DNA of 64,000 bases from Gammaproteobacteria bacterium (GTDB lineage: Bacteria; Pseudomonadota; Gammaproteobacteria; Enterobacterales; Alteromonadaceae): positions 1 through 64,000 of the forward strand of contig JAHJZX010000014.1 of the NCBI GenBank assembly GCA_018826295.1, read 5' to 3'. Positions 6,092-20,353 of the stretch are shown piece by piece (the first letter of the stretch is position 1; each line of letters starts with the position of its first letter). Made by a program: the position numbers and the translations under genes. The notes below the pieces were generated by a model. The model saw only the letters and a program-made list of their open reading frames with translations, was not told where the DNA came from and did no database searches.

Positions 6092-7345
6092 TTAATCATT
6101 ATGGGCAACTGTGAATGCAATCGTCAGATAAAACCAGTTATCGCGAATACAAGAATTTAGCTGCCATTGGTAGCCCTGGCAGATACGGTTAACCAGATGC
6201 AGGCCCTGACCTATGCCTTCACTACTATGGCCTTTTACGCCGGGGCTGTGGATATCTGCCGGGCTGCCTGTCGCTACCGGGTTGGCGATACACAGCTCAT
6301 CGCCATTAAGGCTAATCTCCAACTGGTTGGCGCTGGCATGGTTTAGTGCATTGTCGATGATATTATTCAGCAGAATATGCAGTAAATTCTTATTGGCGCT
6401 AATATGGTAGTTTGCAGCTACGGTTAGCTGCAACTGCAGATCGCTTTGGCGCATTAACCTGGGGTTATTTACCAGGCAGTGTTCAATTTCTTCCAGCAAA
6501 CACAGCGGTTGTTGTTGCATCGATTCTTCTCGTGCCAGCGCCAGCAGCACATGAATGGTTTGCTCCATTTGCAAGGCGGCTTGCGTTAATTGTGTCAATG
6601 TTTGCTCATCGGGTGCCTGGCTGCTGTTTAGCCGGCTCAGTACCATTTTTAGTACGGTAGCGGGTGTGCGCAGCTCATGGCTGATATCGCGGGTAAAATC
6701 GGTTTCACGTGCCAACGCGGCTTGTAGCTGGGCAATATTGTGTTGAATGGTTTGGCCCAGATAGCCAATCTCATTGTCCGGTAGCGTATCATCTAAGTTA
6801 AGCGCGGTGCCGGGTTGATGCTGTTTTACCCGGTTACTTATCGCTTGCAGAGGCCGGATAATTTTCAGGCTTAGATAACGTGATAGTGCAAAGGCCATCG
6901 CCAGTACCACGGCCAGCGCTAAGCCTAAATAAGGTAGGAGTTTGGGCAGATAATCACGGGTCACTTCAAAGGCGGTGACATCTGCCGCCAATATCCAGTC
7001 TGTGTTGCCAAGCGCTATAGTTTGCAGGTGCAAGGTACCACCGCTGCCATTGGGAAACTCTACCCGCTGTGGCGCCAGCTGGCGCAGTTGCTGGATCTCG
7101 CCGGGCAGCGCCTGCCAACCGGCATGCAAGGTCATAAAGGGTTGGCTGGGGGCAATGACATTGCCGGTTTGCTGATACTGCCGGCTGATATGCTCAGCTT
7201 CTGCCGTCACCAGGCGGTTAAACACGTTATCTTCCACCACCCAGGCGTAGCCGAGCATGAGCAGCATTAAACACAGCGCCAACAGCAAACTAAACAATAC
7301 TATGCTGCGCTGTAAGCTGGTTTTTAAACTATGAGATGCCAGCAT
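6092..7345 (-). CDS. Two-component sensor histidine kinase
   Basis: A 417-residue inner-membrane kinase with transmembrane segments near residues 13-35 and 136-156. These enclose a periplasmic sensor region of about 100 residues, followed by a HAMP linker. The H-box DISHELRTPAT carries the phosphorylated His223, and the C-terminal ATPase domain shows an N-box (NIIDNALNHA) and a G-box ending in GIGQGLHL. It lies two bases after its response regulator gene, so they form one operon. The periplasmic part has no domain I recognise, so the signal is unknown. The family layout resembles QseC/PmrB-type kinases. Confidence 0.92.
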   Translation of the reverse strand: MLASHSLKTSLQRSIVLFSLLLALCLMLLMLGYAWVVEDNVFNRLVTAEAEHISRQYQQTGNVIAPSQPFMTLHAGWQALPGEIQQLRQLAPQRVEFPNGSGGTLHLQTIALGNTDWILAADVTAFEVTRDYLPKLLPYLGLALAVVLAMAFALSRYLSLKIIRPLQAISNRVKQHQPGTALNLDDTLPDNEIGYLGQTIQHNIAQLQAALARETDFTRDISHELRTPATVLKMVLSRLNSSQAPDEQTLTQLTQAALQMEQTIHVLLALAREESMQQQPLCLLEEIEHCLVNNPRLMRQSDLQLQLTVAANYHISANKNLLHILLNNIIDNALNHASANQLEISLNGDELCIANPVATGSPADIHSPGVKGHSSEGIGQGLHLVNRICQGYQWQLNSCIRDNWFYLTIAFTVAHND

Positions 7346-7347
7346 GC

Positions 7348-8031
7348 TTAGCCTTGTACTTGCAGTTTAAAGCCGATGCCGTGCAAGGTTGCCAGCATCG
7401 GTGTAGCAAAGGGTTTATCCAATGCCTGACGCAGCGTATAAATATGCGAGCGGACAACGTCGCTGTCTGGCGTGTCATCGCCCCATATTTTGTTTACCAG
7501 CTGTTGGCGGCTCACCGCATTCGGGTAAGCCTGTACCAATAACAGCAGAATGGCAAAATCCGTGCTGCTAAGCTTCAGGTGTTGCCCCTGTCGCTCGGCA
7601 AGCTGCTGCTTTTCATTTACAGCCAGCTCGCCAATCACAATAGTTTTCGACTGGTGCAACTGATGGCGGCGCGCTAACGCCTGGCAACGCAGTAACAACT
7701 CAGTCAGGTCAAATGGCTTCGTCAGATAGTCATCCGCGCCGGCATCAAAGCCCAGGCTTTTGTCGGTAATGCTGTCGCGTGCTGTCAGCATCAATACGGC
7801 CGGCAGCGGATCACAGCTTTGCTTCAGTGTTTTGCACACCGCAACGCCATTGATATCCGGCAGCATCACATCCAGCACGATGACATCGTAATGTTGTTGC
7901 TGCGCCAGTGACAGCCCAAGACCTCCCGTAGCAGCGTAATCTACCTGCATGCCTTGTGTGGCAAGAAAGTCACACACTTCGCGGCCAATCTCCGGGGTAT
8001 CTTCAATCACCAGTACCGACAATATTGTCAT
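7348..8031 (-). CDS. OmpR-family response regulator
   Basis: A 227-residue regulator with a receiver domain (phospho-acceptor Asp54 in VLDVMLPDI, acidic pocket Glu10-Asp11, Lys in TKPFD) and a C-terminal winged-helix DNA-binding domain ending in RQALDKPFATPMLATLHGIGFKL. It partners the kinase gene that follows two bases later. An S41 peptidase gene ends only 37 bases upstream on the same strand, so the order is peptidase, regulator, kinase. Confidence 0.93.
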   Translation of the reverse strand: MTILSVLVIEDTPEIGREVCDFLATQGMQVDYAATGGLGLSLAQQQHYDVIVLDVMLPDINGVAVCKTLKQSCDPLPAVLMLTARDSITDKSLGFDAGADDYLTKPFDLTELLLRCQALARRHQLHQSKTIVIGELAVNEKQQLAERQGQHLKLSSTDFAILLLLVQAYPNAVSRQQLVNKIWGDDTPDSDVVRSHIYTLRQALDKPFATPMLATLHGIGFKLQVQG

Positions 8032-8068: not shown

Positions 8069-9481
8069 TTATTGCAGCTTATCATGGTTGTCGGCGGTAC
8101 CCAGGTGTTGTAGCACCTGCTGCAACGTGGTGTCGATGGCGTTTTGCTGATCTTGCAGCTTATCTGCAACAGGCAGATCCGGTATCACAGCGCTTACCGA
8201 GGTATTGCCGCTTGGTCTAACCAGCAAGCGGGTTGCAACATAGGCCCTCAGCTGCGAGTGGGGTAAGTTAAACAGGTTACCCTGCGCACTCTGGTTGGCA
8301 AAACCGCCGGTGGCTTTGCCGGCCAGTAAGCCAAACTGGTTATCCTGCACTGTGGTGGCAAACACGATAGCGGCAGAGTAACTAACCGGGCCAATAAGCA
8401 CGATTACTTTACCTTTAAAATGATTAGCCGAGGCGTTTGGCTTAACGTAGTCATGCCATTCGCTATTGATAATCTCACCGATGTCACCTTTATAACCAAA
8501 CAGGCCGCGATTGTCTGCGTTAAGCTTCTCTGTCATTTGCGACACCAGGCGAAATGGCTTGTCGGCGATATAGCTGGCCAGCTCAGTAGCCGTATCGGTA
8601 TTGCCGCCAGTGTTATGCCGGATATCAATAACCAGTGCTCTGACGTTGTCTTTGGCAATCTGGCTAAAGGCCGCTTTTAGCTGGTCAGAGAACGCATCCG
8701 GCTCTACATCAAAACTGGTTACCTCCAAATAGCCGGTTGCATCATCTAAACGACGATATGTTAGGTCTGCATTAGCATTATCTTCTTTAGCTGTAACCTG
8801 CCAGCTTTGCTGGTTATCAATTAACAGGCGCTGTGTTTTACCCTGATAGTTATATTCAATGTCGAACTTATCAATAAAACCATATACCGCCCACAGCAGA
8901 AACGGCAAGCGTTCAGCGACAAAGGCCTGGCGCAGCAGTGCAGTTTCGCCACCAACGTAGCGCTGGGCGTTTGTAAAAATATCGGTAACTGCAACGCCGT
9001 TAATGCTGATTAATTGGCTACCTGCGGGAAGTTGTTGGTTCTGGTATTGGTAGTGTTTAGCAACAAAGACGCCATTACTACTGAGTTTTACCAGAAACGG
9101 GAAGGGTTTACTGCCTTGCTCACGCAGTGCGTTCAGTTCCTGATAGGGCCAGATTAAGAAGCTATGACCATCCTGAAACAGATGTGACAGCTGGCCAATA
9201 TGGCGGAAAAATTCTACCCGTGTCATCGGGGTGTTGATACTAGCTTTGAGCGTCGCGACCTGCTGATACAACCCAACTTCGTCGGCATAGCCGGCAAAAT
9301 CCGGATGGCGCAGTTTTACCCCTGCAACCAGTGCATCAATATCCTGATGTAATAATTCAGGCGCAATTTTCTGCTGCATCAGAGCAGGGTTTTCCAATTC
9401 AGGAAAAATATCCAGATGTGCACCGGTGCAACCGCTTAACAGCAGTATCGTACTGAATAATAAACTAACAACAGCTTTCAT
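8069..9481 (-). CDS. S41 family peptidase, lipoprotein
   Basis: A 470-residue protein with a lipobox (LLLSGC, Cys18), so probably an envelope lipoprotein. Residues about 260-440 form the S41 (C-terminal processing peptidase / tricorn) core, with VIDIRHNTGGNTDTA and GPVSYSAAIVFATTVQ; the serine of SYSAA is the expected nucleophile. S41 enzymes cut near protein C-termini or degrade peptides. An AGGAG site precedes the ATG. It is upstream of, and co-directional with, a response regulator and kinase, which suggests a link between envelope proteolysis and that two-component system; that link is inference. Confidence 0.85.
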   Translation of the reverse strand: MKAVVSLLFSTILLLSGCTGAHLDIFPELENPALMQQKIAPELLHQDIDALVAGVKLRHPDFAGYADEVGLYQQVATLKASINTPMTRVEFFRHIGQLSHLFQDGHSFLIWPYQELNALREQGSKPFPFLVKLSSNGVFVAKHYQYQNQQLPAGSQLISINGVAVTDIFTNAQRYVGGETALLRQAFVAERLPFLLWAVYGFIDKFDIEYNYQGKTQRLLIDNQQSWQVTAKEDNANADLTYRRLDDATGYLEVTSFDVEPDAFSDQLKAAFSQIAKDNVRALVIDIRHNTGGNTDTATELASYIADKPFRLVSQMTEKLNADNRGLFGYKGDIGEIINSEWHDYVKPNASANHFKGKVIVLIGPVSYSAAIVFATTVQDNQFGLLAGKATGGFANQSAQGNLFNLPHSQLRAYVATRLLVRPSGNTSVSAVIPDLPVADKLQDQQNAIDTTLQQVLQHLGTADNHDKLQ

Positions 9482-9553
9482 AGCCCTTACTCCTAAGTTT
9501 CAGCTATCAAGCCTACCAAAGTCAGCGTGAAGATTTTGTCGCAGGAATAGTGC

Positions 9554-9590
9554 TTCACACATTTACGACATTTGCTTTGCTAGCTTGCGG
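9554..9590 (+). promoter_or_regulatory. Shared upstream box, copy C (before the esterase)
   Basis: Begins TTCACACATTTACGACATT and continues with GCTTTGCTAGCTTG. It matches the copy at 10884 at 30 of 37 positions and starts 68 bases before the ATG at 9622. A second shared block, GCGTnAAGnTTTTGTC, lies upstream (9525 here, 10845 in the other). Function is inferred: a promoter or activator site for genes of this block. Confidence 0.6.
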
Positions 9591-9621
9591 TAGTCACCCT
9601 AGCTAAGCAGGAATCTATACT

Positions 9622-10782
9622 ATGCAAAGATCATCTTTTAAAACGCTACTTGTCTGCATTGCGGCCGTTGCTGTGATGTCTTGTGGTTCAGGCAGAGAAA
9701 CCTCTTCGAAAGGTACTAAGCGAGAGACATACTGGAGCCTGGACGTGCCCAGTTTTATGCGGGATGCGGATACTCCTGTTATTGAGCTGGTCGGGCCGAA
9801 AGTGATCCAGCTGCAGGTTGGTGAAGCTTACGTTGAACTGGGGGCGACAGCCATTGATGCGCAAGATGGTGATATCAGCTCAGATATTACGGTGGTTAAT
9901 CAATTAAACAGCCAGATAGCAGGTGACTATTTTGTGCGTTATCAGGTAACGGATTCGTCAGGAAAGGTGGCGTTGGAGCAAGTTCGCCTGATCAGAGTGT
10001 TCGATGATCAACCAGCTATGATGGCCAAACGACCACATGGCAGCACGCAATCTCATTTGGGCTATATCGAGAGCTTGCCGGCAAATTACGGCATGGATGA
10101 AACTCAACAATACGCCCTGCTGATCTTTAATCATGGCAATGGCGCTAACGCTGAAATAAGCGGCAATGACCCCGATTTGGCATTAGATCAGATTATAGCC
10201 GGAGCCGGACCTGCCTGGTTACAGTATACCGGTAAATGGGATGCCACTATGCCGGTCATTACACTTAGCCCGCAAATGTATGGCATAGGCCGTGGTAACG
10301 AGATGGCTCGGCTGGATGCCTTTATCGACTATGCCATTAACACTTACAACATCGACCCGTCGCGTATTTATATTACCGGTTGGAGTCAGGGCGGTTTTGT
10401 CAGCTTTTTGTATGCGGCAACTTATCCACAAAGGGTTGCGGCGGCGGTATCAATCTCCGGTGGCTTGCCGTCAAATCCTAGTGAAGCGCCTGCCAATATC
10501 TGTGCCCTGGAGACTGTGCCAATTTGGGCCTTTCACGCCAAAGATGATGAGGTGGTGTCGTTTAATTCAAGTGTCAGAACCATTGATTATGTCAGCCAAA
10601 ACTGTCAGGCGACAGTGGCACCTAAATTGACATTATTTGAAGCCGGCGGACATTTTATTCATCATGCAGTTTATGATCTCAGAGCAATGGACAATGGTAG
10701 TGCAGGTTTAGAAGCCGACCCAACACGCCAGCGTTACGACATTAGCTTGTTTGACTGGTTACTGCAGCATCAGACTGAATAA
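9622..10782 (+). CDS. Lipoprotein esterase (PHB-depolymerase-like) with DUF5011 domain
   Basis: A 386-residue exported esterase. It has a lipoprotein signal ending at Cys21 (VMSC), then an Ig-like DUF5011 module at about residues 48-125 (PVIELVGP...DGDISSDITVV...GDYFVRYQVTDSSG). The alpha/beta hydrolase domain of the feruloyl-esterase / poly-hydroxybutyrate depolymerase type follows. The catalytic triad is readable: Ser255 in GWSQGG, Asp308 or Asp309 in AKDDEVV, and His344 in GGHFIHH. The substrate cannot be named. An AGCAGGAA site precedes the start. It carries the shared upstream box and stands divergent to the S41 gene. Confidence 0.85.
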   Translation: MQRSSFKTLLVCIAAVAVMSCGSGRETSSKGTKRETYWSLDVPSFMRDADTPVIELVGPKVIQLQVGEAYVELGATAIDAQDGDISSDITVVNQLNSQIAGDYFVRYQVTDSSGKVALEQVRLIRVFDDQPAMMAKRPHGSTQSHLGYIESLPANYGMDETQQYALLIFNHGNGANAEISGNDPDLALDQIIAGAGPAWLQYTGKWDATMPVITLSPQMYGIGRGNEMARLDAFIDYAINTYNIDPSRIYITGWSQGGFVSFLYAATYPQRVAAAVSISGGLPSNPSEAPANICALETVPIWAFHAKDDEVVSFNSSVRTIDYVSQNCQATVAPKLTLFEAGGHFIHHAVYDLRAMDNGSAGLEADPTRQRYDISLFDWLLQHQTE

Positions 10783-10883
10783 CCGGCGGTATGCAAGCAA
10801 ATAAAAATTGGCAATATCGTGGTGCAACAAAGCGTAAGCTAGCCGCGTTAAGGTTTTGTCAGCGTTAGATAACTTTCTAAAGT

Positions 10884-10920
10884 TTCACAATTTCACGACA
10901 TTGGCTTTGTTAGCTTGTCG
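10884..10920 (+). promoter_or_regulatory. Shared upstream box, copy A (before the MBL-fold gene)
   Basis: Begins TTCACAATTTCACGACATT, then GGCTTTGTTAGCTTG. It starts exactly 61 bases before the ATG at 10945, the same distance as the copy at 19198 from its own ATG. The palindrome AACTTTCTAAAGTT lies just upstream (10871-10884). Confidence 0.6.
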
Positions 10921-10944
10921 TGACGGTATAACAGGAAATTGTTT

Positions 10945-12429
10945 ATGAAAGTAAAAACGTATTTGGCAGGCAGCTGTATGGTATTAGGGCTGGTTACATT
11001 CTCTGGTATGGCATCTGAAAACAATACAGTAGCTAGCACTTCAACGGTAGGTACGGTGTCGTCGATCATTGATAAAATGCTTACAGCCTACGGTGGCGAT
11101 ACGTTACTGCAGGCGAATAACATCAAAGTCGTCGACTACAATAAAGGCCCCTGGCCCGGCGAGGGCGAATCACCAGATGTGCCGGAGCTGTGGCGTATTA
11201 ACGAAGAGCTGACCATCGACTATAAAAACCAGCGTAAGAGCTTACTATCGTATCGGGTACCGCGTAGCACGCTGGATTTGGAAAAGTGGGTGCAGCAGGG
11301 CGATAGCACCATCATGTACGACATTCTGCACCAAAAATACTCTGAAGAAAGCTGGGCCAACTTTGACCGCTTAGGCGCATCGTTAGAGCGCAGTAGCGAT
11401 ACGCTGCAAGCTAAACGCTTAGCCGGCCTGACAGCAGAGCTGGAATACAGTGGCAAGGAATATTACCGTGGCCGCTTGCAGCAAAAACTCATGCTGCAAC
11501 ATGCATCCGGTGAGCGCTATACCTACTTTGTTGATAACACGTCCGGGCTTATCCATAAAATACTGCGCCAGCACCCACGGGCAGGCGATATGTTGTATGT
11601 GTTTTCTAATCACAACACCGCCGCTAAATTGCCCTATGCCCGCGATATGAATTTCTTTGTTAATGGTCAGCTGCGGCTAAGCTCAGTGCATCGCGATCTC
11701 GAGCTAAACCCTGATCTGAGCACAGTCTTTAACGGCTTTGACCACTTTACGCCCTGGGGTGAAACCATTGATGGCTCTGAATTTACTGCGAAAAAGCTCA
11801 GCGATGGCGTTTATCAGGCCGGTAAAGGCCGGGCGCTAACAGTATTTATTGAACAAGCAGACCATTATATTGCTATGGGCGCCGCGGAGGCGCTGGCTGA
11901 TAATTTTGCCGAAATTAAAAAGCTGTCGCTGCAGGATAAACCGCTAAAGTACTTTGTGGTAACGCACCATCATAATGCCAACGTGCGCGGCTTAAATAAC
12001 GCTGTGGCACTGGGTGCAACACTGGTGGTTGCTAAGCAGCACCAGGCTACCATTTTAAAACATGCCACTACTGCCCAGGCGGATAACCTGCTGGTAATCC
12101 CAGAACGTGCAGCATTCACGCTGGGTGATCTGATGCTATTTGATATCGCTACGGCACATGCACAACATTATTTGCTGGCGTATTTACCCGGCAACCGGAT
12201 GGTGCTGGCAGAAGATCACTATGTCACCGATTTAAAAACGGCTAAGCCTCGTATTTACCACGATATGGTGCGCTTTGCCCAGGCATTAGATGAGCTAAAA
12301 CTCGATGTAAACACCCTGGTGGATATCCGTGGCTGGCGCCAGTTCAGCATGGCGGAGTTCAGGCAATGGACAGACGACTTTAGGCCGAAAACCTGTCCGG
12401 CGGGTTATGATATCTGCGCCAAGGGATAG
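10945..12429 (+). CDS. Exported MBL-fold-like protein with degenerate metal site
   Basis: A 494-residue protein with a signal peptide (cleavage near GMAS). The C-terminal 220 residues resemble a metallo-beta-lactamase fold of the kind that ends in VVTHHHNANVRGLNNAV. The usual THxHxDH motif is here T340-H-H-H-N-A345-N346: the Asp is Ala and the last His is Asn, so normal two-zinc binding is unlikely. It also keeps the later strand LAYLPGNRMVLAEDHY. The N-terminal 250 residues match no domain I recognise. I start at the ATG at 10945, preceded by ACAGGAAA; an in-frame TTG lies two codons earlier. It is followed nine bases later by a broken esterase gene. Confidence 0.72.
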   Translation: MKVKTYLAGSCMVLGLVTFSGMASENNTVASTSTVGTVSSIIDKMLTAYGGDTLLQANNIKVVDYNKGPWPGEGESPDVPELWRINEELTIDYKNQRKSLLSYRVPRSTLDLEKWVQQGDSTIMYDILHQKYSEESWANFDRLGASLERSSDTLQAKRLAGLTAELEYSGKEYYRGRLQQKLMLQHASGERYTYFVDNTSGLIHKILRQHPRAGDMLYVFSNHNTAAKLPYARDMNFFVNGQLRLSSVHRDLELNPDLSTVFNGFDHFTPWGETIDGSEFTAKKLSDGVYQAGKGRALTVFIEQADHYIAMGAAEALADNFAEIKKLSLQDKPLKYFVVTHHHNANVRGLNNAVALGATLVVAKQHQATILKHATTAQADNLLVIPERAAFTLGDLMLFDIATAHAQHYLLAYLPGNRMVLAEDHYVTDLKTAKPRIYHDMVRFAQALDELKLDVNTLVDIRGWRQFSMAEFRQWTDDFRPKTCPAGYDICAKG

Positions 12430-12438
12430 AGGCATACG

Positions 12439-12940
12439 ATGAAACACAGACTATTGCTGCTGATGGTTTTTATTGGTCAATGCGTTGCAGTTAACGCACA
12501 AACGCTAACTGCAGAGACATTGTCTATTGGTGAGGTGATAACCCTGCAATACCCGTCAGCGGTGTTGCAGCAAAAGCGCCACTTTATATGGGCACTCTTT
12601 AGCTGCGTATTTTACCGTTGATTTACTATCAACCCAGCCAGCGCTATTTGACCGATATATCGCGGCCAGCCCACCGCTGCAGCGTCATGTAAAGGATCTT
12701 TATCAACAACTGATTGGGCAAACGTTAGCGTCGGGCAAGACGCTGTACATCACTATGGCAGAGCCGGTAATGGAGGGGGAGCAAGTGTACAACGCTTATC
12801 TGCAGTTTACCCGCTTACTGTCTGACCAAGCGCCGTCTGGCTTAACATGGCAGGCCGAGGTTATGCCGGGCGAGAGCCATATCAGCAACTACTACATCAG
12901 TTTTTTCAAAGGTATTTTCAACGTCTATAGCAATCCATAG
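12439..12940 (+). pseudogene. Remnant of an exported alpha/beta hydrolase (Fes/IroE-type esterase)
   Basis: The first frame (from the ATG at 12439, preceded by AGAGG) gives a signal peptide and then SIGEVITLQYPSAVLQQKR, the usual N-terminal strand of esterases of this type. It stops at 12618. From about 12578 the next frame continues without a start as TLYGHSLAAYFTVDLLSTQP and runs to the stop at 12938. It contains the nucleophile elbow GHSLAA and the late His in PGESHIS. About 100 residues that normally lie between the two parts are missing, so the gene has both an internal deletion and a frameshift at about 12575. It was probably the second gene of the operon headed at 10945. Confidence 0.8.
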
Positions 12941-12970
12941 TAAAAGTTTTCAGACATTAACGGCTACAGC

Positions 12971-14266
12971 TTATACGACGCTGAGTATTGGTAATGCCAA
13001 TGAGAATTGGCAGCCTTGCGGGCTGAGGTTAACCACGCTAAGTTGGCCGTCGTGTGCCTGGGCGATGCGCTTACAAAGATACAGGGCCAGTCCGACCCCT
13101 TTGCTGTTTCTGTGCTGGATGTCAGCGGCATTAAAAAATGGCGTAAATAAGCTGTGCAGCCGGTGTTGCGGTATGCCCTGGCCCTGATCTGTCACACTCA
13201 GTATCAATGCTTGTTCCGTGAGGGTTACCGCTAGTTGCACCTTTTCTGACGTGTTGCCATGCTCGATGGCGTTTTGCAGTAAGTTGCGTAAAACAAATTT
13301 GATTCGGCCGGTATCAAGTTTTACCGCAATTTCTGGTAGGTCAGTCGTAATAACAACCTGTTCTGAAAAACCATTTTCGCTTAACACATCCTCTATTAAC
13401 ATCGGCAGATAGCAATTAGTGATGTTTAATACTCTTGCACCTTGTTCAAGCCGTTCGCCTTCCAGCAACTGGCCAATAAGGTTATTCATGTAATTGATAT
13501 CGTTGTTCAAATCTGTGCTGATATCGTTGTTATCCAGCAGCGCCAGTGACACTTTCATCCTGCCTAACGGGGTTCTGAGCTCGTGGCTGATAGCCATTAA
13601 CATGTCATTCTTGGCGGCGAAAAGTTTTTGCAGATCCTCCGCCATTTTATTCAGGCTGTGGGTTAAGCGCGCCAGCTCCGTTTTGGGATGTTGGGTTATG
13701 CGATAACCTAAATCGCCGCTACTAATGCGCCTGGCGCTGTCTATTGCCTGATTGATCGGGTCGAGTAGGGTTTTTAGCACATAGTAACTTGCGATTAGCA
13801 CCAGCATCGCCAGGATCCATGGCCATAAAATTAGCCATTGTGGGTAGACAATGAGATTCGCAATGTTGGATGTGACCGCAATATGGCTATCGGCAATGCT
13901 GGCATGCAAATAATACTTTGAGCCAACTTTACTAAATAACAATGGGCCTATTGGCTCGGCCGCAGCGAGTAAAACAGCACTGTTTGGAAAGTTTTTTGTC
14001 GTTGCATAAAGCTGCTCACCACGCTTAACCATAATACTGACACGATTGTTCTTAGCATCCTGGTTAAGCTTTTCGATATCGACTGGTTTGTCGGCAATAT
14101 CTTTTACCATTTGAAACAGCTGCGTTTGGCGCTCACTGATAAAGCGTTTTGCTTCAGCTTCACTGATAACAAAATAGCCTAAGGCAATGCAGGCTGAAAC
14201 AATAACTGTGGTGATTGAAAACAGCAGCAGTAAGCGGCCAAACAGGCCCAGATGGGGAATTTTCAT
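12971..14266 (-). CDS. Two-component sensor histidine kinase (Rst/Cpx-like)
   Basis: A 431-residue membrane kinase with transmembrane segments at about 8-34 and 145-165. It has a periplasmic region of about 110 residues, a HAMP domain (ISSGDLGYRITQHPKTELARLTHSLNKMAEDL), His228 in AISHELRTPLGRMKV and a HATPase domain (NLLQNAIEHG, DQGQGIP, GVGLALYLCKRI). Its start codon overlaps the regulator's stop in ATGA (14263-14266), so the two are translationally coupled. The layout matches RstB/CpxA-type kinases. The gene order with a Spy/CpxP-like gene suggests envelope sensing. Confidence 0.92.
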   Translation of the reverse strand: MKIPHLGLFGRLLLLFSITTVIVSACIALGYFVISEAEAKRFISERQTQLFQMVKDIADKPVDIEKLNQDAKNNRVSIMVKRGEQLYATTKNFPNSAVLLAAAEPIGPLLFSKVGSKYYLHASIADSHIAVTSNIANLIVYPQWLILWPWILAMLVLIASYYVLKTLLDPINQAIDSARRISSGDLGYRITQHPKTELARLTHSLNKMAEDLQKLFAAKNDMLMAISHELRTPLGRMKVSLALLDNNDISTDLNNDINYMNNLIGQLLEGERLEQGARVLNITNCYLPMLIEDVLSENGFSEQVVITTDLPEIAVKLDTGRIKFVLRNLLQNAIEHGNTSEKVQLAVTLTEQALILSVTDQGQGIPQHRLHSLFTPFFNAADIQHRNSKGVGLALYLCKRIAQAHDGQLSVVNLSPQGCQFSLALPILSVV

Positions 14267-14955
14267 GAGGCTTTAGCAATGAAGGTGTAACCCACATTCC
14301 TTAGTGTTTTTATAAACTTAACCTGTTTAGGGTCGTCTTTGAGTTTTTGCCGCAAACGACTCATCAGAATGTCGATAGAGCGGCTGTAAATTTCCGCGTC
14401 TATACCTTTTAGCTCATTTAACAGTTGATCACGGCTGAACACTTCTCCCGGGTGACTGGCTAACAGATGCAGCAACTTAAATTCCATGCCGGTAAGGCAT
14501 AAATCTTCACCGTCCAACGTTGCCTGATGGCTGCTGGTAAAGATGTGTAAATCGCCAAAACGCATTGAATTCGGTTCTTTCACTGTTGAGGTGTTGCGCC
14601 GCAGTAATACCTGGATTCTGGCGACAAGTTCGCGCGGTTCAAACGGTTTGGCCAGATAATCATCGGCACCCAGCTCCAGCCCCAACACTTTATCTGACAG
14701 CTCGCCACGCGCAGTAAGCATAATAATGGGAATGTTGCTGCTTAAGCGGATTTGTTTGCATAACGTAAAGCCGTCTGTCTCTGGCATCATAACGTCAAGC
14801 AATAACAGGTCGGGCTTTCTAAGCGTTAGCTGCCTTAGACCGTCGGCAGCAGCATTGGCGATAAGAAGCTGGATACCAAAGTTAGCAAAATAGCTTTCAA
14901 GCCGGGCACATAGCGACGTATCGTCGTCGATTATCAGCACGCTTATTGTCATCAT
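14263..14955 (-). CDS. OmpR-family response regulator (RstA/CpxR-like)
   Basis: A 230-residue regulator with receiver domain (Asp10-Asp11-Asp12 pocket, phospho-acceptor Asp54 in LLLDVMMPETDG, conserved Lys in AKPFEP) and a winged-helix output domain. The C-terminal part (LKGIDAEIYSRSIDILMSRLRQKL, then KTLRNVGYTF) looks most like RstA. It follows the Spy-like gene by 79 bases that contain a hairpin, and precedes its kinase with a four-base overlap. Two ATG codons open the gene; either could be used. Confidence 0.93.
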   Translation of the reverse strand: MMTISVLIIDDDTSLCARLESYFANFGIQLLIANAAADGLRQLTLRKPDLLLLDVMMPETDGFTLCKQIRLSSNIPIIMLTARGELSDKVLGLELGADDYLAKPFEPRELVARIQVLLRRNTSTVKEPNSMRFGDLHIFTSSHQATLDGEDLCLTGMEFKLLHLLASHPGEVFSRDQLLNELKGIDAEIYSRSIDILMSRLRQKLKDDPKQVKFIKTLRNVGYTFIAKAS

Positions 14956-14976
14956 GTCACCCTATTTAATTAAGCG

Positions 14977-15010
14977 CGGCTCTTGCTTACAAAAGGCAAT
15001 GCAAGAGCCG
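14977..15010 (-). other. Hairpin between the Spy-like gene and the response regulator
   Basis: CGGCTCTTGC (14977-14986) pairs with GCAAGAGCCG (15001-15010), a perfect 10-bp stem with a 14-base loop and no T-run. Such a structure inside an operon can protect the upstream message or lower downstream expression, which would make the Spy-like protein more abundant than the regulator. Confidence 0.5.
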
Positions 15011-15034
15011 TAGGTTATGATTTATCCGCAATAA

Positions 15035-15433
15035 TTATTCTGCCTTGGCATTTGCCTGCAGCAGTTTTTGCAACAGTGCTTGCCTTTGCTCAACGCTAAG
15101 TTCAGCATGCAACTGGCTCATGGCTTCCAGCAGCTGCAGTACTTTACCATCAATGTTTAACTGCCATTGTTTATATGCCTCAAATGCGGCGGCTGCATCA
15201 AGCTGATCACTCTCTGCTACGGTTGCAAAGTAGTCTTTTAAACCACCTTTGCTTGATTTAGCTGCGTCGGCAACCTCTTTAAATGAGGCATAAACGTCTA
15301 ATGCCAGTTCTTGCTGCTGTTCACTAAAGCCGTGACTTTGCACCAACAGTTTTACCAGAGTTTCATTTGCCGACGATGATGCCGATGTAACAGTTGCCAG
15401 CACAAACAGCACTATAGTAAGTAATTTAGTCAT
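15035..15433 (-). CDS. Periplasmic Spy/CpxP-like protein
   Basis: A 132-residue protein with a clear signal peptide (cleavage near ASSSA) and an all-helical, Gln/Leu/Ala-rich mature part. The stretch LSVEQRQALLQKL resembles the LTxxQ motif of the Spy/CpxP family, periplasmic chaperones and signal dampers. The start at 15433 is set by AAGGAA eight bases upstream; a longer reading upstream lacks a site. It is the first gene of a likely operon with a response regulator and kinase, which is the arrangement expected for an accessory protein that inhibits the kinase. Family assignment is tentative because of the low conservation. Confidence 0.65.
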   Translation of the reverse strand: MTKLLTIVLFVLATVTSASSSANETLVKLLVQSHGFSEQQQELALDVYASFKEVADAAKSSKGGLKDYFATVAESDQLDAAAAFEAYKQWQLNIDGKVLQLLEAMSQLHAELSVEQRQALLQKLLQANAKAE

Positions 15434-15528
15434 AACATGAGTTCCTTTAATAGCACAATCCTGCGTATTGCAGTGCAGACCATTATCAATAAATAAAAAA
15501 ATGCTGCTTCTCATGCCGGCAACGGAAT

Positions 15529-15543
15529 GTAACATTAAGTAAC
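15529..15543 (-). promoter_or_regulatory. Direct repeat GTTAC-N5-GTTAC for the Spy-like operon
   Basis: On the minus strand this reads GTTAC-TTAAT-GTTAC, two pentamers repeated every 10 bp, 95 bases before the Spy-like start. OmpR-family regulators bind such one-turn direct repeats (the CpxR box is GTAAA-N5-GTAAA). Probably the site of the regulator encoded at 14263. Confidence 0.55.
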
Positions 15544-15617
15544 ACCGCTGCGATGTTGGGTGTTTTTTGGCTTTCCCTGGCTAAAACGCAACGTCAGTTG
15601 TTGCACTGATACACTCC

Positions 15618-15632
15618 GTTACATAGCGTTAC
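15618..15632 (+). promoter_or_regulatory. Direct repeat GTTAC-N5-GTTAC for the divergent membrane gene
   Basis: Reads GTTAC-ATAGC-GTTAC on the plus strand, 82 bases before the ATG at 15715. It is the mirror of the site at 15529-15543, so each divergent promoter has the same repeat in its own direction. Confidence 0.55.
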
Positions 15633-15714
15633 CGCAGCGCAACCAGCGCTGGTGCACCTTTAATTATGCTGTGCGTCATCAAAATGCACTTCAGATGAGT
15701 AAAGGTGAAAGTAG

Positions 15715-16431
15715 ATGCAAAATATTAAGTTAAGTAAGGTAGTAGGGGTATTGTTGCTACTGCAAATGGCAGGCGGCATATTTCTGAATTTCAGTTTTTT
15801 AACCATCTTTAAAACCGATATTTTTACAGTACAGCACGATGATTTAAAGCTTGCGCTCGGCGTTGCCACAATTTTGGCGCTAGGCCTCAGTGGTATTAAT
15901 GTGCTTGTTGCTGCAATTGCGTCGCAGCGGTTTCGTCATAGCAACGCTGTGCTGTGCTTACTGCTTGTGGTATTTGCGGCTTCAGGCTTACTGGCAACAG
16001 GCTTTGAATATGCCGATTTGGCCAACTATACCGCCTTCATACACGATATTCGCGCACAAGGGTTACAGGAATTAAGCCCGCTGCATGAGTTAATGCGCTT
16101 GCAGGTAATCTCAACCCGTAATGAGTCACATCATCTGGCACTATTTTTATCCAGCCTGAGTTTATTGCTGTTTTATGTTGTGCTGTATCGCACCACTCAT
16201 ATCGCAAAACTGTTACTGGCCTTTGCAATTATGGCTTGTTCACTACAGCTTATCGCCTTAGGCAACACCTTTTTCCAGGGGCAGGTAATAGCGGCAATCC
16301 AGTTACCCTTGTTCGTTACACAGCTGGTGATGCCAATTTACTTTATTACAGTTGGCTTTCGCGCTAAAGCAAGCGTTGCTGAGGTATCGGATGCAGGCAC
16401 AGCAACACAAAATAAAGCCGCAGGAGCCTAA
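15715..16431 (+). CDS. Multi-pass membrane protein, DUF4386-like
   Basis: A 238-residue protein with about seven hydrophobic segments and the opening KLSKVVGVLLLLQMAGGIFLN, which recalls DUF4386 proteins. The function is unknown. An AAAGGTG site lies nine bases before the ATG. It is divergent from the Spy-like operon, shares a symmetric control region with it, and is followed two bases later by another membrane protein gene. It is therefore a likely member of the same regulon. Confidence 0.65.
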   Translation: MQNIKLSKVVGVLLLLQMAGGIFLNFSFLTIFKTDIFTVQHDDLKLALGVATILALGLSGINVLVAAIASQRFRHSNAVLCLLLVVFAASGLLATGFEYADLANYTAFIHDIRAQGLQELSPLHELMRLQVISTRNESHHLALFLSSLSLLLFYVVLYRTTHIAKLLLAFAIMACSLQLIALGNTFFQGQVIAAIQLPLFVTQLVMPIYFITVGFRAKASVAEVSDAGTATQNKAAGA

Positions 16432-16433
16432 CC

Positions 16434-17099
16434 ATGTCAGCAATTTTCTTGGGGTTACATATCACTGCGGGTATTGTCGGCCTGATTGCTGGCTTTACGG
16501 TGATTTTTTTGCAAAAGGGCAGTGTCACACATAAAAATACCGGCTGGGTTTTCCTGCTTGCCATGCTGGTGTTAGGGTTAACAGGGAGCATAATTGCCTA
16601 TGCGAAGCATATTCCGCTATCGATGCTAAATGGTATGCTGCTGTGTTATTTGTTGCTGACATCTTTAACCACCATCAGAGCAGCGTCTTCTGTTAGCGCT
16701 CTGCTTAATAAAGCGCTTTTCGGCTTAGCTGCGACGCTTGTAGCTGGCTATGGTTATTATTTTTATCTGGCGATTGGCGTAAGCCCTGCTAAATTGGCTG
16801 GTTTTGGCCCGGCAGCATATGCAGTGTTTGGGGTGATCACCGTCTATGCCTTAGCTGAAGATATTGTCGTGCTGTGTTCTGAGCGCTTATCCAGCAGAAT
16901 GACGCTTATAAGACATCTCTGGCGCATGTTGTTTGTATTGTTTATGGCCACAGCTGCCGTGTTTTTGGGCCAGGCTAAGCTGTTTCCGGCGCCGTTAGTA
17001 CAAAGCGGCGCTATTTTTGTGCCAGTGGTGTTTGTCTTGCTAAGTCTGTTCTATTGGTTGTTTAAGGTATTGTTTAAAAAACAAATCATAAAAAATTAA
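16434..17099 (+). CDS. Multi-pass membrane protein, DUF2306-like
   Basis: A 221-residue protein with six to seven hydrophobic segments. The opening LGLHITAGIVGLIAGFTVIFLQKGSVTHKNTG has the short polar loop with a His that is typical of DUF2306-type membrane proteins. No catalytic residues are recognisable. It begins two bases after the previous gene, so the two are translated from one message, and it ends before a serine hydrolase gene. Confidence 0.65.
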   Translation: MSAIFLGLHITAGIVGLIAGFTVIFLQKGSVTHKNTGWVFLLAMLVLGLTGSIIAYAKHIPLSMLNGMLLCYLLLTSLTTIRAASSVSALLNKALFGLAATLVAGYGYYFYLAIGVSPAKLAGFGPAAYAVFGVITVYALAEDIVVLCSERLSSRMTLIRHLWRMLFVLFMATAAVFLGQAKLFPAPLVQSGAIFVPVVFVLLSLFYWLFKVLFKKQIIKN

Positions 17100-17191
17100 G
17101 TGCTGAGTTATAAATAACTGGCAATTCAGGGGGCTGTTTAACGGAATTGCTTAGACTTACAGCGACAGAAGATATAGGGTTACTTTCAGTA

Positions 17192-18835
17192 ATGTCAGCG
17201 AAATTTTTAACACTGCTATTGATTGTGTTAGCTAGTCTTTCCTCTACAAAGATCGTTGCTGCAAAACCTGACCCGGCAGAGGTATGGCTGCACTATAGCA
17301 AGCCAGAGCAGGCGGGTGTGCTACCTGAAAAATTACACAAGGCACAGCAGCTATATCAGCAACATGCTTTTGCCAGCGTATTGGTGATTAAAAATGGCGC
17401 TGTGGTGTTGGATTGGGGCGAGAACACTCGCCGCTTCCCCATTCATTCTATTCGAAAAAGCTTACTTAGCGCGCTATACGGTGTGCACTCGGCGCAGATT
17501 GATTTGCAGGCAACGCTGGCCGAATTAAATATTACCGATACGCCGCCCCTGACGGAACAAGAACGCATGGCAACCTTGTTCGATGTGCTGGCATCACGCT
17601 CTGGCGTATACCTGCCTGCCGCTGCCGAAACCAGCAATATGACACAACAGCGGCCCGCCAGAGGCAGCCACCCGGCAGGCCAATATTGGTGGTATAACAA
17701 CTGGGATTTTAATGTTGCCGGCACATTGTATCGGCAACTTACCGGTGAAGAGATATTTTCGGCTTTTGCTACCCATTTAGCCAAGCCGTTACAGCTTGAA
17801 GATTACCGCGAGTTTGATGGCTACTACCTTAAGTCAGGATCTGAACATGCGGCATTTCAATTCCGTATGTCGTCGCGTGATTTAGCCAGAGTTGGTTTGT
17901 TGTATGCACGTGAAGGCAACTGGCGTGGTACGCAAATTATTCCGTCAGCCTGGATAAAACAGAGTACCCAGGCGATAAGTCAGACCAATATGGGGGCAAA
18001 ATATCCTGCTGGCTACGGCTTAAGTTGGTGGGTTGATAGCCATGATAGCTATAGCGCCCGCGGCGCTGGCGGCCATGTGCTGGCGGTTTATCCTCAGCAG
18101 GATTTAGTTATTGTGCTGCGGGTTAATAGTTATATTGACCAGTCGGTGCCGCAAAGCGCAATAAAAAACTTACTCTCGCGACTTGAGTCAGCAATGCAAG
18201 GCCCGGTTGACACTAATCCTGAATTAGCGCCAGCAGAGCCCGATGTTGCCAGCGAACAGCCGCTACCAGCACGTTATCATTTGGCAGAAGCGTCAATCAG
18301 TTTGCCAAACGGGCAGGTTGTCACACTGAAACAACGGCAAGGGCGGTTATTTATCAATTATGGCCGTGGTGATTTTGAGTCGTTTTATGTGAATGACGAT
18401 CAGTTTGTTATTGCTGACCTTAATGAACCCCTGCAGCTGGAACTCGATAGCGCGGGGACGCTAACCGACATATTAACGCCACGGGTGTTCTATCTCAGGG
18501 CTGCTGAGGCGGCTAAAGCTGGCGATCTAACGCAGGCCCAAATGTGGGTGCAGCGCGTGATTGATATGATGCCAAATTCGTCAATCGCCTATACCAATCT
18601 GGCGAAAGTGTTGTTAGCACAACAACTTAATCAAGACGCTAGCAAGAACCTTGATATTGCGCTGCAACTAGACCCAGACAACAAACAAGCTGAAAATTTA
18701 AAGCAAAGTTTGTTGATTAAACAATGGCTTCTGCCAAGTCTATTCATCGTAACAATATTTGTATTGTTTTGGTTTGCAATAAAAAGGCGAAGCAGAGCAA
18801 AGTGGCTTAAGCAACAGCCTCCACACGGAACTTGA
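17192..18835 (+). CDS. Beta-lactamase-fold serine hydrolase with TPR and C-terminal membrane anchor
   Basis: A 547-residue exported protein. After a signal peptide (cleavage near IVAA) it has a class C beta-lactamase-type hydrolase domain, with the catalytic S86-I-R-K89 motif and Tyr168 in YNN. The third motif is replaced by RGAGGHV. A small beta-rich segment follows, then TPR-like helices (residues about 440-510) and a C-terminal transmembrane segment ending in RRSRAK. The protein would thus be anchored with the enzyme outside the cytoplasm. Such hydrolases act as esterases or D-amino-acid peptidases; the substrate is unknown. I start at the ATG at 17192 for the signal peptide; the upstream TTG at 17147 is less likely. 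Confidence 0.82.
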   Translation: MSAKFLTLLLIVLASLSSTKIVAAKPDPAEVWLHYSKPEQAGVLPEKLHKAQQLYQQHAFASVLVIKNGAVVLDWGENTRRFPIHSIRKSLLSALYGVHSAQIDLQATLAELNITDTPPLTEQERMATLFDVLASRSGVYLPAAAETSNMTQQRPARGSHPAGQYWWYNNWDFNVAGTLYRQLTGEEIFSAFATHLAKPLQLEDYREFDGYYLKSGSEHAAFQFRMSSRDLARVGLLYAREGNWRGTQIIPSAWIKQSTQAISQTNMGAKYPAGYGLSWWVDSHDSYSARGAGGHVLAVYPQQDLVIVLRVNSYIDQSVPQSAIKNLLSRLESAMQGPVDTNPELAPAEPDVASEQPLPARYHLAEASISLPNGQVVTLKQRQGRLFINYGRGDFESFYVNDDQFVIADLNEPLQLELDSAGTLTDILTPRVFYLRAAEAAKAGDLTQAQMWVQRVIDMMPNSSIAYTNLAKVLLAQQLNQDASKNLDIALQLDPDNKQAENLKQSLLIKQWLLPSLFIVTIFVLFWFAIKRRSRAKWLKQQPPHGT

Positions 18836-18844
18836 AGTAACCGC

Positions 18845-18881
18845 TTCACATTTTAACGACATACACACTGATAATGTGTTG
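18845..18881 (+). promoter_or_regulatory. Shared upstream box, copy D
   Basis: TTCACATTTTAACGACAT and following bases match copy A at 25 of 37 positions, with the first 18 bases best conserved. It lies only 40 bases before the possible small gene at 18885, so its spacing differs from copies A, B and C. Confidence 0.4.
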
Positions 18882-18884
18882 AGT

Positions 18885-18989
18885 ATGGTATCTGTGCTAG
18901 CCATAGGGCTTTGGAGCACAAACTTGATTTATCGCAACCGCCATTATCGTCAACCGATCCGCTTTAAGCTAAGCACCATCACCATCTAA
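18885..18989 (+). CDS. Possible small membrane-type protein, 34 residues
   Basis: ATG to TAA encodes 34 residues: a short hydrophobic stretch (MVSVLAIGLWSTNLIY) followed by a basic tail (RNRHYRQPIRFKLS). This looks like a single-span small protein, but the ribosome binding site is poor (GTTGAG close to the ATG) and I know no homologue. It sits directly after a copy of the shared box. It may equally be chance. Confidence 0.25.
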   Translation: MVSVLAIGLWSTNLIYRNRHYRQPIRFKLSTITI

Positions 18990-19197
18990 CCAACTTAAGT
19001 GATATGCCCTCCTTGGCAAATGATCACGTTAGCGGCGGTGTGTTAAGCGTGGTTTATGCTTTCTAACTTTGTTAGTTTCAATATGTAACCGAAAATCATA
19101 AAGTTACATTGTTCAGAGTTGCGGGTTAAAGCTAAATGTCGGGCAGATATTCTGCGTTTCTGGCCAATTTAGCAGCTTAATGTCCGTGTTATTTGTC

Positions 19198-19234
19198 TTC
19201 ACAAGGTTACGAAAGTCGATTTGTTAGGCTGCAC
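19198..19234 (+). promoter_or_regulatory. Shared upstream box, copy B (before the DJ-1 gene)
   Basis: Begins TTCACAAGGTTACGAAAG and continues with TTTGTTAGGCTG. It matches copy A at 25 of 37 positions, including an unbroken TTTGTTAG. It starts 61 bases before the ATG at 19259, identical to copy A. Confidence 0.55.
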
Positions 19235-19258: not shown

Positions 19259-20353
19259 ATGAGATTGTTAACCTTAATACTTACCGGCATGATACTGGTT
19301 AGTCCCTTAGTGTCTGCTGAAGAAAAACGTGTACTGATGTTAATTTCCAGCTACGGCTCTGAAGCGAATCCCGAATTGAGTTACGATTTGGAAGAGCTGG
19401 CACAGTCGTATCTGGTGCTGCATGACAATGGCGTAAAACTGGATATTGCCAGCCCGAAGGGCGGTGCTGTGCTGGTAAAAAACAATAAAGACGCACTGGA
19501 TTATATTCAGCGCTTTAAATCGCTAGCTTCGGCGCAGTTAGCGAATACACTGGCCACAGCTGATACTGACATTAAGCAGTATGACGGTGTATTTATTGTT
19601 GGTGGCTCCGGCGCCATGTTGGATTTACCCAGCCATCAAGCAACACAGCAACTACTAACCAACGCAGTAAATAAAGACAAAGTTATTACAGCTGTCTGCC
19701 ACGGCCCGGCAGCGATTGCAGATTTAAAGTTAACCGATGGCAGTTATTTCGTGGCTGGTAAGCTGGTTAATGGCTTTACCAATAGCGAAGAGCAAGCGTT
19801 TAGCGGTGAACACTTATCATTGTTTCCGTTTTTGCTGCAAGACCGATTAGTAAAAAACGGTGCTCAGTTTGTGCATAATGCGCCGATGCTGCCTTATGTC
19901 GCGGTTGACGGTAAATTGATTACCGCGCAAAACCCAGGCTCGGTAGCCAAAGCTGCCGAGGCTATGCTATTGGCGCTGGGTTTACCGGTTAGCGTCCGTC
20001 AACCTTTCTCGGACGAGCGCACTATGGCATTGCTGTCAGAGGCCAGGCAAAACGGCCCTGTGGTCATTGATTTGGCGTTGCAACAACCTGGGCACAATAT
20101 CGATATTAACTATCTGGCGCTGTATGGCTTTTACGCCTTTAGGTTGGCTGATGACGCGGACAAAGGCCGTGAGCTGATGCTTATGCATACCATCAGCAAG
20201 CACTTCTCACACCCGGAGTTTGATGCCCAGCTTATCGTACAATCTTTAGAGCAGGGGCTGCTAGCGCAGGCTAAGGCGGGATATCAGCAGTTTGTGCAGC
20301 GTTACCCTGAGCATAAATACGTCGCCGAGCTTAAAACGCAGTTAGCGCTGTAA
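19259..20353 (+). CDS. Exported DJ-1/PfpI-family protein with C-terminal extension
   Basis: A 364-residue protein with a signal peptide (cleavage near VSAE). The DJ-1/PfpI domain spans residues about 23-240. Its nucleophile elbow AVCHGPAA gives Cys147, and the segment VFIVGGSGAMLDL forms the usual GG turn. The layout resembles Hsp31/YajL-type glyoxalases or deglycases, but export is unusual for them. The last 110 residues are helical, TPR-like (AKAGYQQFVQRYPEHKYVAEL) and not part of the core fold. An ACAGGAG site sits seven bases before the ATG at 19259. It carries the shared upstream box. Confidence 0.82.
   Translation: MRLLTLILTGMILVSPLVSAEEKRVLMLISSYGSEANPELSYDLEELAQSYLVLHDNGVKLDIASPKGGAVLVKNNKDALDYIQRFKSLASAQLANTLATADTDIKQYDGVFIVGGSGAMLDLPSHQATQQLLTNAVNKDKVITAVCHGPAAIADLKLTDGSYFVAGKLVNGFTNSEEQAFSGEHLSLFPFLLQDRLVKNGAQFVHNAPMLPYVAVDGKLITAQNPGSVAKAAEAMLLALGLPVSVRQPFSDERTMALLSEARQNGPVVIDLALQQPGHNIDINYLALYGFYAFRLADDADKGRELMLMHTISKHFSHPEFDAQLIVQSLEQGLLAQAKAGYQQFVQRYPEHKYVAELKTQLAL

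Follow-up and report, generated by a model that had tools for sequence, protein, structure and literature searches.

A 37-bp sequence box recurs in front of several genes in a 64,000-nucleotide stretch of DNA from a member of the Alteromonadaceae (Gammaproteobacteria bacterium, assembly GCA_018826295.1, contig JAHJZX010000014.1, positions 1 to 64,000 of the forward strand; herein, the window is this whole stretch). Our comparison supports, with good confidence, a conserved local regulon that is real and whose operator and regulator can be identified by comparing relatives. The box reads as a promoter whose 3' third is a housekeeping extended -10 element, and its most likely binder is RR1, the response regulator encoded at 7348-8031. 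The whole model, an activator-dependent sigma-70 promoter module driven by RR1, is given a probability of roughly 0.8. It is drawn from sequence comparison, in which the boxes, their geometry, their conservation, their restriction within the genome and their tie to one regulator family can all be followed. The boxes in the window are the following:

9554 to 9590, plus strand: box of the esterase/lipoprotein gene, TTCACA-N5-ACGACA-N10-TAGCTT, with the -10 hexamer at 9581-9586 and the ATG (9622) 68 bp on.
10884 to 10920, plus strand: box of the metallo-beta-lactamase-like (MBL-like) gene, with the -10 hexamer TAGCTT at 10911-10916 and the ATG (10945) 61 bp on.
19198 to 19234, plus strand: box of the DJ-1/PfpI gene (DJ1), with the -10 hexamer TAGGCT at 19225-19230 and the ATG (19259) 61 bp on.
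18845 to 18881, plus strand: putative orphan box, upstream of the DJ-1 gene.
9510 to 9540, minus strand: box of the operon for an S41 peptidase, RR1 and the histidine kinase HK1 (S41-RR1-HK1), with the half-site order swapped (GACAAAATCTTCAC-N8-TGGTAGGCT); proposed autoregulatory site.
10847 to 10860, minus strand: degenerate S41-type box, by sequence reading a relic, situated ahead of the box of the MBL-like gene.

A sequence-only reading of the window had reported the copies at 9554, 10884, 18845 and 19198, identities to the 10884 copy of 30, 25 and 25 of 37, and spacings to the ATG of 68 (9554), 61 (10884) and 61 bases (19198). All of these values were reproduced, and a fifth copy, on the minus strand at 9510-9540, had been overlooked. 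The pattern TTCACANNNTNACGA, with up to one mismatch allowed, has four matches in the window, all of them exact and all of them the four plus-strand boxes; in the shuffled window the mean was 0.67 matches, and four matches were reached in 2 of 100 shuffles. A longer pattern made from the 9554 and 10884 copies matched only those two in the window and nothing in 100 shuffles. Across the whole 4.57-Mb genome, the exact core TTCACANNNTNACGA occurs five times, four of them in the block, and the reversed-pattern control occurs three times.

A 39-column box model was then built from nine sites, namely four from the window, two from Rheinheimera maricola and three from Rheinheimera pleomorphica; the names of these two same-genus relatives suggest Rheinheimera as the genus of the window. 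In the scan of the own genome, in which 150 of 426 first-look candidates were scored, the four window sites gave E 2.5e-8 to 1.0e-5, by construction since they are training sites, and the next scored candidate gave E 1.46. The nine strong hits across the genus were likewise the nine training sites, and the tenth lay before DJ1 in R. pleomorphica (E 0.024); no further strong hit was seen. The genome scan proposed in the sequence-only reading revealed no genome-wide spread. The confinement of the box to its locus indicates a local regulon rather than a refutation of shared control.

Alignment of the copies gives two half-sites that both end in ACA and lie 11 bp apart, followed 10 bases on by a hexamer TAnnnT that often stands after TGn. 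This anatomy was tabulated for 30 boxes from 16 genomes, which were picked by score and by eye, with the training sites among them; two regions that failed, upstream of DJ1 at locus L103 and of the MBL-like gene at locus L086, are not in the list. TTNACA is present in all 30 listed boxes and AC[AG] 11 bp on in 29 of them. Within the -10 region, the last T of the hexamer is found in 30/30, its first two bases are T in 26/30 and A in 28/30, the G of TGn is found in 27/30, and the complete TGnTAnnnT in 15/30. A direct repeat of 10-11 bp period near -35, as in OmpR/PhoB-family operators, is present, and inspection of the boxes by eye gave no good -35 at proper spacing. The geometry of the half-sites and the extended -10 indicates that the 37-bp box is probably an operator plus a -10, not a free-standing operator, and the predicted start site would lie about 20-30 nt before the ATG. 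Two other readings of the region were dropped. One placed a sigma-70 -10 at TATAAC/CATAAC, immediately upstream of the Shine-Dalgarno in the MBL-like and DJ-1 genes; transcription would then start on the ribosome-binding site, and no such -10 was seen there downstream of either the 9554 copy or the SUMF copy of R. maricola. The other was an inverted repeat in the 10884 copy (TCACGACA...TGTCGTGA), which was not seen in the other window copies.

Conservation of the box was tested with a matrix made only from the nine first Rheinheimera sites and applied to 20 upstream regions not used in building it; some gene starts in these regions were set by eye from tblastn, and distances there are approximate. 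The box was found in 17 of the 20 regions, with 0 of 500 shuffles as good. By the same nine-site matrix, the best site of the locus lies before DJ1 in L122, L123 and L124. In other genera, boxes of the same kind lie upstream of the orthologues of the DJ-1, MBL-like and S41 genes; the sequence-only reading had named conservation before orthologues as support, and this support was obtained. Furthermore, 394 genomes drawn from the order were searched for RR1 homologues at E 1e-72, and 10 genomes held them. Among 11 loci fetched around RR1 homologues outside the own genome, six carry a box above background with a 17-site matrix (L098-L101, L105 and L106). Four of these (L100, L101, L105 and L106), with a regulator of only 52-59% identity, contain an S41-RR1-HK1-DJ1 cluster in which the DJ-1 gene is the one preceded by the box; DJ-1 is for this reason regarded as the most constant target.

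The genes of the block that bear on the identity of the regulator and its targets are listed below. Export of the products was judged by eye from the N-termini.

7348 to 8031, minus strand: RR1, OmpR/PhoB-family response regulator with Response_reg and Trans_reg_C domains, the proposed binder.
6092 to 7345, minus strand: HK1, sensor histidine kinase, presumed partner of RR1.
8069 to 9481, minus strand: S41-family peptidase, first gene of the S41-RR1-HK1 operon, lipobox-like N-terminus.
9622 to 10782, plus strand: alpha/beta hydrolase (esterase) with an Ig-like domain, lipobox-like N-terminus.
10945 to 12429, plus strand: MBL-like protein, signal-like N-terminus.
19259 to 20353, plus strand: DJ-1/PfpI-family protein, the most constant target, signal-like N-terminus.
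12971 to 14955, minus strand: two-component pair HK2-RR2, which is not conserved alongside the boxes; RR2 occupies 14263-14955.

Boxes occur together with RR1, HK1 and the S41 gene in the window, R. pleomorphica, Planctobacterium, Kangiella, Pseudidiomarina and others. At the sequence level, full-length structures of the OmpR/PhoB family are matched by RR1, best 1kgs and also BasR and KdpE. A regulator with receiver and winged-helix domains is encoded near the boxes, with R. maricola as the exception. The MBL-like gene occurs in 3 of 31 genomes of the genus, the same three that have strong boxes, and outside the genus in 7 further genomes plus G268 and G413. Six outside genomes with the MBL-like gene were searched for RR1, and all six contain it at 69% identity or more; in three of these six it lies beyond the first fetched flank, elsewhere in the genome. 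The sequence-only reading had suggested that one of the two response regulators of the block exerts shared control; the comparative evidence favors the one at 7348, and the one at 14263 has no close relatives at box loci.

The S41-type box differs in the order of its parts. Twelve regions upstream of S41, read side by side, show GACAAARYCTTCAC or a near form, followed by TKnTAnnnT or a near form; the half-sites are in reverse order and the 11-bp and 10-nt geometry is unchanged. With up to one mismatch, this box has one match in the own genome, one in R. pleomorphica and none in the 29 other genomes of the genus. It is listed at 14 of 15 S41 loci, with patterns written per locus from the locus's own sequence, so that this listing does not serve as an independent test.

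Several results weigh against this reading. The loose 18-base pattern of the first search matched 20 times and its reversed control 19 times, showing no overall enrichment; its clustering alone stood out. Three regions of the held-out set were weaker or failed: L085 DJ1 (2 of 500 shuffles as good), L103 DJ1 (64 of 500) and L086 MBL (321 of 500). The S41-type box was not found in L124. Five of the 11 RR1-homologue loci (L102, L103, L104, L107 and L108, regulator 51-55% identical) have no box above background; the most diverged regulators sit at these loci, and our confidence is unaltered by them. By eye, TTCAC-N6-TTCAC-N11-TATGCT is seen before or at the predicted DJ1 start in L102 and L107. 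Finally, R. maricola (G030) has two boxes among the best scoring, and at its locus the S41 and RR1 genes are missing and HK1 is truncated; its nearest RR1 relative is a 48% paralogue elsewhere in the genome. The remnant of HK1 (L026, 15925-16647) is a 240-codon open frame of the catalytic core, with the sensor part missing. With this frame still open, the deletion could be of recent date; alternatively, the R. maricola boxes may be served by the 48% paralogue.

The mechanism that best fits these data can be outlined as follows. HK1 would switch RR1 by phosphorylation on an envelope signal. Phosphorylated RR1 would then bind as a head-to-tail dimer to the half-sites 11 bp apart (TTCACA, N5, ACGACA). 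With 10 nt between the end of the second half-site and the -10 hexamer, the dimer would cover the -35 region, and it would recruit RNA polymerase at the extended -10 (TGnTAnnnT or close). In this way RR1 may activate the DJ-1, MBL-like and esterase genes along with its own S41-RR1-HK1 operon, the latter via the swapped-order box. Of this scheme, we infer the binding, the activation rather than repression, the control by phosphorylation and the signal.

The direction of control and the origin of the copies both allow other explanations. RR1 might bind the same site as a repressor or dual regulator, with dimers beside the -10 blocking polymerase until the signal comes. The box ends 10 nt before the -10, which is where class II activator architecture places the activator site; the last T of the -10 is kept in all 30 listed boxes, and the lack of a good -35 at the right spacing by eye also speaks for activation. 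On the other side, the known relative ColR represses oprQ and PP0737 and activates others (PMC2689224). Repression is considered an unlikely reading. It is slightly less probable still that the copies are alike mainly via duplication of a promoter region at gene insertion, the esterase having come between S41 and the MBL-like gene, with shared control as a by-product. Outside the box, 14 of 16 bases directly upstream also match between the 9554 and 10884 copies (a score reached by 3 of 1000 shuffles), and this stretch is the minus-strand S41 box or its relic; the match suggests a duplication of the divergent S41/MBL promoter region on arrival of the esterase gene. The DJ-1 and orphan copies, however, share no upstream flank with these two, and the boxes kept before DJ1 in other genera contradict duplication as the sole explanation. 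The MBL and DJ-1 boxes share ATAACAGGA downstream (13 of 1000 shuffles), and the remaining 10 of 12 flank comparisons of the window boxes gave nothing notable. The preference of the sequence-only reading for shared control over gene duplication is upheld by the conservation across genera, except that duplication of a promoter region may be part of the reason why the 9554 and 10884 copies are so alike.

The identity of the binding protein was weighed in the same manner. An extracytoplasmic function (ECF) sigma factor, which the sequence-only reading had offered as an alternative, would account for a box in two parts, like a -35 and a -10. However, no sigma domain was found in the 17 scanned proteins in or beside the block, so that no sigma factor gene was seen beside the boxes, a search that covered these proteins and not ECF genes elsewhere in the genome. 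In addition, the 3' part agrees with an extended -10 of housekeeping type, and the 5' part is an 11-bp direct repeat typical of OmpR-family dimers. This alternative is accordingly without support and very improbable. An equally slim chance is given to RR2 as the binder. It is encoded within the block, but it is only 33% identical to RR1, and the best relatives of the RR2-HK2 pair at box loci are a 40% HK2 fragment (L082) and a 37% RR2 (L105). RR1 remains the preferred binder.

The regulator family was further followed through paralogues with 46-50% identity to RR1 in a prospective test. A variant box, TTCACA-N5-TTCAC-N11-YANNNT, was read from the DJ1 promoters of three paralogue loci (L109-L111) and searched in 31 genomes. 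It gave 24 matches, three of which are the source sites, and the reversed pattern gave none. All 24 lie within 12.5 kb of the nearest listed family regulator gene, and 22 of them within 4.6 kb. The variant box is present in 11/11 genomes with a 46-50% homologue (three of which gave the pattern), in 2/10 genomes with only a 40-45% homologue, and in 0/10 genomes with none at E 1e-50; R. pleomorphica was put in the middle class (45% homologue) though it also holds RR1. In the own genome, on contig C33 (G000; L110 9686-14915), variant boxes precede the DJ1-RR-HK operon of the paralogue and a YbbP-like ABC transporter operon. The latter encodes a YbbP-like permease and a LolD-like ATPase, the YbbP match being below the curated cut-off. 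The targets of the C33 boxes are a hint of envelope-stress control.

The YxLR motif of the DNA-binding domain has Thr at position x in RR1 and in those close relatives whose boxes are of the CGACA type. L109-L111, whose boxes are of the TTCAC type, have Gln there, and L102, L104, L107 and L108 have Ser; this distribution is confounded by descent. Two further RR1 paralogues in R. pleomorphica (L028 11569-12306 and L029 2205-2912, both minus strand; 60% and 57%) have degenerate receiver domains with Ser in the acidic pocket and keep the DNA-binding part; an Asn in these receivers replaces the presumed phosphorylated Asp. These paralogues may be phosphorylation-independent competitors for the same boxes. 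As a tentative proposal, with the odds somewhat against it, one cell would hold two paralogous DJ-1-linked two-component systems, RR1 and the 48% paralogue on C33, kept apart chiefly by one half-site (TTCACA+CGACA for RR1 versus TTCACA+TTCAC for the paralogue). RR1 would use one half-site order for its targets and the other for its own operon, and the promoter module would be handed to newly arrived accessory genes, giving a local regulon by promoter capture.

The 18845 copy and the R. pleomorphica box at L028 11626 align at 95% along 41 bp. No open reading frame of at least 100 aa lies between this copy and the DJ-1 gene's own open reading frame, which leaves room for shorter ones. In view of this and of the 41-bp match, the copy is regarded as a putative orphan promoter.

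For the MBL-like protein, Pfam, NCBIfam and PDB sequences gave no match, and its name rests on a motif resemblance. Its HHHNAN motif is without the Asp and the last His of the HxHxDH motif, and it may for that reason not be a standard metallo-hydrolase. Its counterparts show 83% identity in Planctobacterium marinum and 76% in a Kangiella metagenome-assembled genome (L080, L081); S41, RR1 and HK1 lie alongside, which suggests horizontal transfer. Behind the MBL-like gene, 12439-12934 holds a broken alpha/beta hydrolase gene in two fragments in different frames, 57% and 93% identical to the R. pleomorphica homologue, whose residues 54-143 are unmatched.

No report of this regulon was found in the searches made of open-licence PMC papers. 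A two-component system for which no description was found there thereby gains a predicted operator and a predicted target set. DJ-1/PfpI proteins with signal-like N-termini are tied to dedicated two-component control across several genera, and paralogous regulators whose boxes differ in one half-site offer a natural case for the insulation of duplicated regulators. The block also illustrates how new genes may fall under a local regulator.

The layout of the window boxes is that of the class II promoters of the PhoB/PmrA type, in which tandem sites with an 11-bp period end about 10 nt before the -10 and replace the -35; the letters of the half-sites differ from the PhoB/PmrA consensus. No protein was named CreD among the 10 proteins in a curated-model scan, and RR1 differs from CreB, with 140.8 bits on NF008296 against a cut-off of 273. 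The cre/blr-tag of CreB in E. coli and BlrA in Aeromonas is TTCACN6TTCAC (PMC3660660, PMC4689548). The boxes of the window share with the tag the TTCAC half-site, the 11-bp direct repeat, an OmpR-family regulator and a target beside the regulator genes, and the boxes near the paralogous Rheinheimera regulators read TTCACA-N5-TTCAC. By contrast, the second half-site of the window boxes is CGACA-like, and the TTCACN6TTCAC tag is found only near the paralogous regulators.

The ColR box of Pseudomonas putida, (T/C)(T/C)NA(C/G)NN(T/C)TTTTT(C/G)AC, has been footprinted and contains two TTCAC-like direct repeats 11 bp apart, one of them less conserved; among the targets of ColR are many membrane proteins and genes next to that of the regulator itself, and more than 40 genes are predicted (PMC2689224). 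The TTCAC-like half-site, the 11-bp direct repeat and the regulator family are common to both systems. No TTTTT tract stands between the half-sites in the 30 listed boxes, unlike the ColR box, and about five sites at one locus are seen here, unlike the ColR regulon of more than 40 genes; this comparison covers the boxes and their targets. Taken together, the RR1 system appears to work like the cre/blr and ColR systems while belonging, on the tests made, to neither.

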